From positions 1-56,895 of the forward strand of contig DATHVN010000040.1 of NCBI GenBank assembly GCA_035461305.1: 56,895 nucleotides of DNA. Direction: 5' to 3'. The notes beneath the pieces were generated by a model that made no database searches, was not told where the DNA came from, and saw only the letters and a program-made list of their open reading frames with translations. Source of the stretch: Euzebyales bacterium. GTDB taxonomy: Bacteria; Actinomycetota; Nitriliruptoria; Euzebyales; JAHELV01. Each line of letters opens with the position of its first letter. Within the stretch, counting starts at the first letter, position 1. The position numbers were made by a program, and so were the translations under genes. Shown here in pieces: positions 47,819 to 50,098 of this stretch.

Positions 47819-48876
47819 TCACGGCGAGAACACGACCTTCGGCGTGCCGGCGTCGTGGCGGGCGAAGCGAGCGTACGCATCCGGCCCCTCGACGAGGTCG
47901 ACGACGGGCCCGGTGAGCACGGCACCGGCGACCCGTGGCAGCAGGTCGTCCGCCCGCGGCAGCACCCGGTCGAGGGCCGACCGCGCCGACGCCCGTCCGA
48001 AGCGGACGGTGAGGTTCGTGTCATAGGCCGCGACCGGCGTGAACCCGAACGCGGTGCCGGTCTGGACGGCGATCACCGACAGGGTGCCGCCTGGTCGGAC
48101 CAGGGCACACGCGAGGCCCTGTGCAGCGGTCGTGCCAGCGGCCTCGACGACCGCCGGCGCACCCTCGGCGGCCACCAGCGCCGCCATGATCGCGACGGCG
48201 TCGTCGGGCGTCGCGACCTCGGCACCCAGCAGCGCCGCAGCCTCCCGACGCTCCGCCACCGGGTCGATGGCCAGGACGGGACCGGCACCCGTCGCGGTGG
48301 CAACCGCGACAGCGCACAGACCGACCGCGCCGAGCCCCACCACGGCCAGCGCGTCACCGGCCTTGGTCCCAGTGCGCTCGACGGCGGACCACCCGGTCGG
48401 CAGGTTGTCGGTCAGCAGCACCGCGGCAGTGTCATCGACGTCGTCGGGCACCAGCACGAGGGTGGACCCCGCCAGCGGCACGCGGACGTACTGCGCCTGG
48501 CACCCGTGCAACGCTGGGACGGTGGGGTCGTCGGCGGGACCGAAGCCGAACAGCTCGCCCCGCAGGCACCGGGCGGTCAGGCCGCGGCGGCAGGGCCCGC
48601 AGGCTCCACAGGACGTCGTGAAGGGCACCAGCACACGATCGCCGACGCTGATCCCGTCGACCTCCGAGCCCGTCGCCACGACCTCCCCCACCGCTCGTGC
48701 CCGCACACGACGCCGAAGCGCACCGACTCGCGGCCCTCGTAGGGGTGCAGGTCCGAGCCGCACAGCCCGGCGCGGCGCACTGCGACGACCGCGTCGGTCG
48801 GCGCCGTCACGGTTGGCTCGGGCAGGTTCGTCCGGTGGACCACCCGGCGCACGCCCTCCAGGACCAGCCCGCGCAT
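47819..48876 (-). pseudogene. Zinc-dependent alcohol dehydrogenase with a frameshift
   Basis: From ATG 48876 (good GGAGGTG site) the frame gives LCGSDLHPYEGRE and VVCGHE, the catalytic zinc Cys and the GHE motif. Near 48690 the continuation shifts frame to VGEVVATGSEVDGISVGDRV. It then has four structural-zinc cysteines (TSCGACGPCRRGLTARC), the NAD-binding VVGLGAVGLCAVAV, and the C-terminus VVFSP. One base is missing relative to HEAVGEVV. The product is a medium-chain dehydrogenase if the shift is a sequence error. Confidence 0.8.
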
Positions 48877-48907
48877 CACACCTCCATGGCTCGGCTGCCA
48901 CACGCTA

Positions 48908-48957
48908 CTGCCAGAAGGGTGGCAGCAGTGGTGGGGCTCCTGCCACACAGGTGGCAG
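48908..48957. promoter_or_regulatory. Twin 18-bp operators
   Basis: CTGCCAGAAGGGTGGCAG at 48908-48925 and CTGCCACACAGGTGGCAG at 48940-48957 share the arms CTGCCA/TGGCAG. Their centres are 32 bp apart, about three helical turns. They lie between the dehydrogenase and VOC starts and are likely bound by the WYL regulator encoded at 49406. Confidence 0.75.
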
Positions 48958-49011
48958 CAGGGGTCGGCGATGGTGGCGACATCGCACAGACGGACCACGA
49001 AAGGACCCGCG

Positions 49012-49419: not shown

Positions 49420-50098
49420 CCGGCTGTTCTCCATCGTCCTCGAGCTACGCCGCCGTCCGGTCACGACGGCGGCGCAGCTCGGTGAGCACCTCGAGGTGTC
49501 GGTGCGGACGGTGTACCGCGACATCGCGGACCTCATCGGTGCCGGCATCCCGATCGAGGGTGAGGCGGGCGTCGGCTACCGGCTGGGCGGCGACTTCGAG
49601 CTCCCACCGCTGATGTTCACCGTGGCGGAGGTCCAGGCACTGGTGCTAGGGGCCCGCATGGTCGAGGCCTGGGGCGACCCGCGGCTGCGCACCGCGGCCC
49701 GCAGTTCGCTACGCAAGGTCGAGGCCGTGCTGCCGCCGACCCAGCGCCACCGCGTGGCCGACACCGCGATGTACGCCGTGTCGTTCTGGGTGCCCGACGA
49801 GCCGCGCGAGACGCTTGGCATCGTGCGTGAAGCGATCGACCGCCAGCGCCGGCTGGCCATCAGCTACACCCGCGGCGACGGTGACACGACCAAGCGGGTC
49901 ATCCGACCGCTCGCGCTGTTCTTCTGGGGCCGCCAGTGGACCATCGGGGCGTGGTGCGAACTGCGTCAGGACCACCGCAGCTTCCGCGTCGACCGCATCA
50001 CGTCCATCGACACCCTGGATGACACCTTCGAGCACGAGCCCCCGGTGACGCTCGACGACTTCCGCGCCTCGATCGACCGCGACGCCGACGGGACCTGA
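49406..50098 (+). CDS. WYL-domain (YafY-like) transcriptional regulator
   Basis: The 230-aa protein has an N-terminal DeoR/HTH_11 domain (RADRLFSIVLELRRRPVTTAAQLGEHLEVSVRTVYRDI). The WYL sensor domain follows (LALFFWGRQWTIGAWCELRQDHRSFRVDRI). The ATG at 49406 gives the typical YafY start, and an ATG at 49394 is possible. It is translated with the VOC gene and probably binds the twin palindromes at 48908-48957, controlling both divergent transcripts. Confidence 0.93.
   Translation: MRRADRLFSIVLELRRRPVTTAAQLGEHLEVSVRTVYRDIADLIGAGIPIEGEAGVGYRLGGDFELPPLMFTVAEVQALVLGARMVEAWGDPRLRTAARSSLRKVEAVLPPTQRHRVADTAMYAVSFWVPDEPRETLGIVREAIDRQRRLAISYTRGDGDTTKRVIRPLALFFWGRQWTIGAWCELRQDHRSFRVDRITSIDTLDDTFEHEPPVTLDDFRASIDRDADGT

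Follow-up and report, generated by a model that had tools for sequence, protein, structure and literature searches.

A predicted operator-promoter module of WCX-less WYL regulators, traced from a palindrome pair in a Euzebyales genome

The two palindromes that stand upstream of a VOC-WYL gene pair in the analysed stretch of Euzebyales DNA (56,895 nt, in the following termed the window) are probably tandem operators, at which a homodimer of the adjacent class-B WYL protein would bind and activate the VOC-WYL operon from the proximal site. In its general form, CTGMCA-N6-TGKCAG, the motif is strongly supported by sequence comparison as the predicted operator of a WYL subfamily devoid of the WCX domain, and the occurrence of the same sites at a fixed distance beside related proteins in several phyla suggests a widespread on-switch. 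The new part is the promoter module around the operator pair and its spread over phyla: Motif and geometry together constitute a sequence rule that predicts target gene, direction and start for members of the subfamily, and that would give a handle on the signal sensed by VOC-WYL gene pairs.

The palindrome pair, its neighbouring genes and the WYL protein

The first-pass annotation had described two palindromes with identical arms, 32 bp apart, between a dehydrogenase gene and the VOC and WYL genes; sites and gene positions agree with this description (see Table 1). The 32 bp are the start-to-start distance, and both palindromes are contained in a 32-bp direct repeat of 81% identity. The distal spacer (GAAGGG) carries the A/G signature of the relatives (see below), and a -10 box at the fixed offset is absent; the proximal spacer (CACAGG) retains the G at its fifth base and has C at its third base, where most relatives have A. 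This C and the candidate -10 element GATGGT, a weak match to TANNNT, both count against the activator proposal set out below. A two-mismatch scan of the window gave three matches as against 2.85 expected, which is not significant; the decisive evidence is therefore the comparison with related loci. In the host genome (4.24 Mb, 237 contigs), the exact CTGCCA-N6-TGGCAG occurs at two places, both at this locus, and 16 places elsewhere match the exact arms with one mismatch; the relaxed CTGMCA-N6-TGKCAG occurs at three places, the third within an ORF, and the backward control pattern at six.

Table 1. Positions of the features at the palindrome locus (window coordinates) and of the strict palindromes in two order mates (locus coordinates)
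Feature	Position	Strand	Basis or remark
Zinc-binding alcohol dehydrogenase-like gene	47819..48876	-	divergent neighbour; start about 48876
Distal operator (predicted), 24-bp palindrome CTA-CTGCCA-GAAGGG-TGGCAG-CAG	48905..48928	+	arms 48908-48925; 32 bp upstream of proximal site
Proximal (promoter) operator (predicted), CTC-CTGCCA-CACAGG-TGGCAG-CAG	48937..48960	+	arms 48940-48957
Proximal spacer, six bases, in -35 register	48946-48951	+	register counted from -10 box
Candidate -10 element GATGGT	48969..48974	+	12 nt after TGGCA; the 53 promoters tabulated from relatives share this offset
Predicted transcription start (about +/-2 bases)	48981	+	inferred from -10 position; leader ~31 nt
Possible ribosome-binding site AAAGGA of VOC gene	49000..49005	+	sequence
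VOC-superfamily gene (glyoxalase/bleomycin-resistance/dioxygenase fold), 135 aa	49012..49419	+	Pfam PF00903, E 1.6e-8
WYL regulator gene, 230 aa	49406..50098	+	Pfam matches, structure model; overlaps VOC stop
Predicted recognition helix, residues 33-45, VRTVYRDIADLIG	49502..49540	+	structure model, alignment
Strict palindromes in G012 and G006	L145 1501 and 1821; L146 1501 and 1823		

The nearest neighbours of the pair are the dehydrogenase, VOC, glycerophosphodiester phosphodiesterase-like and protein kinase genes. The VOC gene is proposed to be the first gene of a VOC-WYL operon; the dehydrogenase gene was dropped as a target of the promoter, the minus strand being without a -10 box at the fixed offset. 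This latter gene is read in two frames at about 48580-48700 (ADH_N profile positions 2-42 in one frame, positions 40-98 and the rest in the other), which may reflect a frameshift or a sequencing error.

The WYL protein comprises an HTH_11 domain at residues 6-59 (PF08279, E 8.4e-16) and a WYL domain at residues 135-201 (PF13280, E 2.8e-19), both matches being above the cut-off. A WCX domain is absent: The protein stops at residue 230, 29 residues past the WYL match, and the structure model (pLDDT 87.8, pTM 0.67) reveals a single C-terminal helix after the WYL domain. In consequence, the protein is not placed in class A; it shares the HTH-WYL architecture of the class-B proteins and is assigned to this class as delimited in the accessible part of PMC6789036, where class B accounts for ~15% of the WYL proteins. 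An experimentally defined operator for class-B WYL proteins was not found among the papers listed from open-licence PMC text. In the predicted recognition helix, R34, T35, Y37, R38 and D39 are invariant in 84/84 proteins, part of the helix peptide having also served as search pattern for some of the loci; C184, R187, R191, F193, R194 and D196 of the WYL domain are likewise invariant (84/84). Foldseek placed PafBC (9fnd, E 3.5e-12) and DriD (8tp8, E 6e-11) nearest to the model, followed by CapW and BrxR, and the sequence profile matched PafBC (6sj9, 5.7e-23) and DriD (7e-9), so that PafBC is the best neighbour by sequence and by Foldseek alike. VIA-align ranked the repressor BrxR first (Z 14.7, rmsd 5.2, 167 aligned); the fold therefore cannot tell an activator from a repressor. 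CapW is a WYL repressor in phage-defence loci. The PafBC element has the form TTGTCRGTG-N8-TAnnnT, which was not found in the text searched and on which nothing rests here.

Recurrence of the motif beside related WYL genes

Three further genomes of the genus carry the locus (L006, L007, L148). The sites are CTGCCA-CAGGGG-TGGCAG and CTGACA-CGATGC-TGTCAG in L006 (WYL protein 82% identical) and CTGACA-GACCCG-TGTCAG and CTGCCA-GGAAGG-TGTCAG in L007 (77%), 32 bp apart in either case, and CTGACA-CGAAGC-TGTCAG with a one-mismatch site 32 bp upstream in L148 (genome G001); the hexamers at the place of the window's -10 element are CAGGGT (L006) and CATGGT (L007 and L148). According to this comparison, the arms drift between A and C at one position, whereas spacing and symmetry are constant. 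The operon of G001 is mostly missing (L148 about 1501-1720): A short ORF with a VOC-like beginning and a WYL-like end is left, and the promoter persists with its two operator positions; the operon may have shrunk by deletion, or its shortness may reflect faulty assembly.

The wider comparison comprised 80 loci with WYL proteins of 47-58% identity (one genome per species, best 80 of 575 candidates), which were retrieved through the conserved subfamily peptides MRRADRLF and T[VI]YRDIAD and are thus not a random WYL sample. Among these best 80 of 575, CTGMCA-N6-TGKCAG was present in 74/80 loci, with 81 sites in 435 kb; the reversed pattern gave 0 and first-order shuffles a mean of 0.05 and at most 1. 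Four of the six loci without the strict motif have a one-mismatch site and two (L037, L075) have none. The spacer length is sharply defined: TGMCA-Nk-TGKCA yielded 85 sites at k=6 and 0-6 at each of the 24 other spacer lengths between 0 and 24. By their record titles, many of which are those of metagenome bins, the site-bearing loci belong to Alpha-, Beta- and Gammaproteobacteria, Myxococcota (Polyangia), Acidobacteria, Dehalococcoidia, Nitrospirae and Zixibacteria. The composite pattern had 0 matches in viral_contigs, i.e. no phage copies.

The consensus over the 85 sites is CTNCTGACA-N6-TGTCAGNAG, and the GCC/GGC core of the window is, judged from these sites, a local variant of GAC/GTC. The first-pass annotation had regarded the arms as fixed and the spacers as free: The statement is correct within the window; in the relatives, one arm position can be either A or C, and the notion of a free spacer has to be abandoned, since two spacer positions are strongly conserved and asymmetric. 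The outer free base and its counterpart in the opposite arm covary (57/84 complementary versus 32 by shuffling), as expected of a symmetric dimer with a drifting preference. Protein columns 33 and 61 were considered as readers of this outer base; they are associated with it, but the loci share ancestry, and the assignment is not claimed.

No strict motif was present in the 25 loci of remoter WYL proteins (31-38% identity, related genomes; flanks of 1.5 kb or less, 86 kb in total), and the laxer arms TGNCA matched in 1/25. A further set was obtained by searching the orders to which two of the 80 loci belong; it amounted to 45 loci after two self-hits had been dropped from 47 and to 44 after removal of L175, which is the same DNA as L083 (seven additional matches had no locus). 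The motif was found in 22/44 of these further loci with 28 sites (two control patterns: 0 in 159 kb), namely in 10/16 at an identity to the query of 47% or more and in 12/28 below. From the sequence of 74/80, 22/44 and 0/25 it follows that the motif belongs to the WYL subfamily and fades with distance; this footprint, together with the 32-bp site pairs within the genus, strongly supports the earlier assignment of the window's pair as the predicted operator of the adjacent WYL regulator.

A gene matching the VOC seed profile follows 42/81 sites, and this is the unbiased figure. Among 54 proteins scanned, 46 matched the glyoxalase family PF00903, four DinB and one DUF1127, which is not an unbiased share, as 42 of the 54 had been chosen by the VOC profile (ten others were hand-picked and two are from the host genus). 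In 30 genomes taken from the 80, each with a site at the WYL locus, the motif has one match only in 11 and 2 to 12 matches in 19; the total of 96 versus 29 for the control exceeds one site per locus, and some further sites may therefore be real. The expectation that the motif would not be widespread away from WYL genes thus holds for the host genome and for the 11 genomes with a single match, and is qualified by the other 19. In Geothrix and a relative (L051, L057, L073, L078), the WYL gene is followed by the site and this in turn by DinB-family genes, which are the class of target known for SiwR. In Phyllobacterium (L085 about 1087, L104 about 1093), the promoter module is found in front of a gene for a small protein, at a distance of ~1.4 kb on the upstream side of the WYL gene; the small protein behind the L085 module is a DUF1127 protein.

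Promoter geometry, direction and helical phasing

The geometry was analysed for 59 sites located 130-1800 nt upstream of the WYL gene. TANNNT begins 12 nt after TGKCA in 26/59 sites and in at most 4 at any of 43 other offsets (-4 to 39). A table of 53 promoters was derived from these sites by exclusion of L060 and L086, for which the WYL gene itself had been picked as the ORF, of L070 with its unlikely ORF, and of the distal site in each of L035, L056 and L077; L060 and L086 have NANNNT at the offset and L070 does not, and the 53 promoters include three loci with an unconvincing picked ORF (L055, L084, L111). In these 53 promoters, A-11 is present in 53/53, T-7 in 44/53 and T-12 in 29/53, while the third spacer base is A in 51/53 and the fifth G in 53/53. 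Relative to the -10 box, the spacer with its six bases occupies the -35 register. A -35 element is absent by sequence: None of the 53 promoters matches TTGACA at more than 3/6 positions for spacings of 15-19, as against about 9 promoters with a match of at least 4/6 predicted from random places in the same loci, and the stretch where a -35 would stand is filled by the conserved operator. The offset rule is weaker in the further loci (NANNNT in 14/28 sites).

The spacer asymmetry is directional. Of 87 strict sites, 61 have the forward spacer signature, nine the reversed one, and 17 are ambiguous. The forward sites have NANNNT at the offset ahead in 46 cases and behind in 5, and TANNNT in 22 and 0, respectively; for the reversed sites, the counts are 5 and 2 (NANNNT) and 2 and 2 (TANNNT), and this lack of clarity with TANNNT counts against the direction rule. 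The indication that the asymmetric spacer predicts the direction of the promoter is thus suggestive, the reversed group being small. The nine reversed sites are located in seven loci, 6/7 of which have, by eye, a likely divergent target. Inspection by eye of the divergent side in 17 loci revealed a VOC-like gene in L039, L052, L059 and L091 (a fragment in the last of these), a long ORF of another kind preceded by TATAAT or TATACT in L089, L092 and L101, and in L050 a uvrA-like ORF 223 nt away; nine of the 17 are without a convincing divergent target (L090 reversed, five ambiguous, three forward). The divergent product of L089, L092 and L101 has ~300 residues, is not VOC-like by eye and contains DGGFG.

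Second sites are helically phased. With the host genus counted once, the ten strict pairs 24-110 bp apart have spacings of 32, 33, 33, 33, 33, 34, 43, 45, 53 and 54 bp, with none between (Rayleigh measure at 10.5 bp: R 0.91, about 3e-4); when one-mismatch partners are added, the spacings are again 32-34, 43-45 and 53-54. Some paired loci come from one order, so that the pairs are not fully independent. The 32 bp of the window are accordingly part of a rule by which second sites lie whole turns away on the same face.

A deviating layout was encountered in the order mates G006 and G012, the WYL proteins of which are 62-63% identical. Their WYL-adjacent site, which carries one mismatch, lacks a -10 box at offset 12 on both strands; each genome contains two further strict sites, before a DNA-alkylation-repair-like gene and a DrrA-type ABC gene (see Table 1). 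All four strict sites precede TAGCGT by exactly 43 nt and thus lie 31 bp upstream of the usual position; a start codon follows 7 nt behind each of these boxes, the genes being apparently leaderless. More than one geometry may hence be in use. In G008, G039 and G005, which have the repair-like gene (39-55% identity) and no close WYL relative, no site was found at that gene, a comparison that covers few, related genomes.

Proposed mode of action, known WYL systems and alternatives

DriD of Caulobacter crescentus is, according to the accessible part of PMC12340889, a class-A WYL activator with the site ATACGAC-N7-GTCGTAT; its sites keep one distance from the -10 box and overlap a poor -35, and its DNA-binding domains flank the -35 and sandwich sigma-4, which lies on the opposite face. 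The sites described here resemble this arrangement in that a pseudo-palindrome occupies the -35 region at a constant distance to the -10 box with a poor or no -35, and both consensus sequences contain GAC...GTC (N7 in DriD, N8 here). In contrast to DriD, the WYL protein has no WCX domain, and its predicted sites have the arms CTNCTGACA/TGTCAGNAG, an asymmetric conserved spacer and tandem phased copies; instead of a damage regulon, there is apparently one local target. SiwR of Mycobacterium smegmatis, as presented in the available sections of PMC10693628, is likewise a WYL activator that acts locally: It recognises a palindrome located between -35 and -10, its neighbour genes are of the DinB or glyoxalase type, and its function depends on two pairs of arginines, one in the helix and one in the WYL domain. 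The spacing of these arginines (4 and 3) is that of R34/R38 and R191/R194 here, a correspondence of spacing and not of aligned sequences. SiwR differs in that it possesses a WCX domain, that its 19-bp palindrome is imperfect with a conserved GGA at -26, and that the loci presented for it are actinobacterial. PafBC, in the excerpts available of PMC11804915 and PMC6789036, is a heterodimeric WYL activator with an element near -26 and an unused -35 (sigma adaptation); the -35-less activator layout is common to both systems, whereas the heterodimer, the non-palindromic site, the WCX domains and the DNA-damage regulon are peculiar to PafBC.

The -10 box at a fixed distance, the absence of a -35 and the directional motif point to activation, which is further favoured by the DriD-like layout, the likeness to SiwR and the kinship of the protein to the activators PafBC and DriD. 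In a promoter without a -35, sigma region 4 would be placed by the WYL dimer: The proximal half-sites flank the -35 register, the downstream half ending 12 nt before the -10 box, and the spacer would accommodate sigma region 4, enclosed by the pair of DNA-binding domains and held by the dimer as reported for DriD. By analogy, the rule would imply that a DriD-like sigma-4 contact can activate without a WCX domain. A second dimer would be contributed by the distal site, which lies upstream by three turns of the helix and faces the same way. The protein would be switched on by a signal that binds to the WYL domain, the VOC product may handle an electrophile, an oxidised metabolite or a drug, and the regulator gene, being on the same transcript, would provide positive feedback. 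Extended to the WCX-less subfamily as a whole, the proposal is one directional module in several phyla, in which half-sites replace the -35, sigma-4 reads an NNAYGY spacer, the -10 box stands at a fixed 12 nt, extra operators are optional at whole turns, and a self-amplifying on-switch serves each detoxifying VOC or DinB-type gene; we consider the chances for this extension to be evenly balanced.

The same promoter overlap, and the position of the regulator gene within its own operon, would also suit an auto-repressor, in which RNA polymerase is kept off the -35/-10 region by the bound WYL dimer as long as no ligand releases the latter. BrxR, a dimeric protein that represses a defence island, binds inverted repeats near the -10 box of its own promoter (accessible text of PMC9122601), and both BrxR and CapW, likewise dimeric WYL proteins with, by the model, the same overall fold, are among the neighbours of the structure model; the BrxR repeats, however, differ from the motif and are located downstream of the -10 box (same source). 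Such a repressor needs a promoter that is active alone, whereas a -35 was not found in any of the 53 promoters, and it has no need of the invariant 12-nt distance or of a spacer with an asymmetry directed towards the -10 box; repression is therefore regarded as unlikely. Sites closer than 130 nt to the WYL start (16 sites in 13 loci) had been considered as an indication of auto-repression and were rejected as such, because for several of them a reversed signature, combined with a -10 box on the divergent side, is the better explanation. If the palindromes were bound by another, unlinked regulator of VOC genes, their position upstream of a VOC gene at 42/81 sites would be readily understood, as they track the target type as well as the regulator. 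The sites nevertheless accompany the WYL gene whether a VOC, a DinB-family or a DUF1127 gene follows, and whether they are placed upstream, divergently or downstream; they are missing from the 25 loci of remoter WYL proteins, and G008, without a close WYL relative, has no site at the gene that carries one in G006 and G012, all of which renders this reading very improbable. Even less credible is an RNA element, be it a dispersed repeat of the REP kind or a hairpin that terminates, attenuates or stabilises the mRNA: A stem closed by a 6-nt loop is conceivable for either palindrome and the outer positions covary, but the fixed -10 box puts the start downstream of the palindrome and hence the palindrome outside the mRNA to be controlled, the motif is not dispersed (single-copy in 11/30 genomes), and no T run follows the palindromes in the window.

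Within the preferred activator reading, the nature of the ligand can be discussed separately. ssDNA arising from damage is the leading candidate by kinship to the known systems, and ssDNA or a related damage signal would be the likeliest single ligand, well short of certain. The alternative that the activator responds to a small electrophile, a drug or a metabolite handled by the VOC protein concerns the ligand only and is compatible with the promoter model; VOC genes behind 42/81 sites and the invariant C184 of the WYL domain (84/84) are in its favour. Against it, R187, R191 and R194 of the WYL loop are kept in 84/84 proteins, as in the ssDNA-binding SiwR (R204/R207; available sections of PMC10693628), and the sites at a DNA-alkylation-repair-like gene in two genomes would fit damage sensing, so that a small-molecule signal is given somewhat less than an even chance.

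Close relatives of the WYL protein are rare in the host phylum (3/296 sampled genomes at E 1e-50, the window's own included). Outside the phylum, many of the best matches among those listed are proteobacterial by title, and horizontal transfer may have contributed to this distribution.
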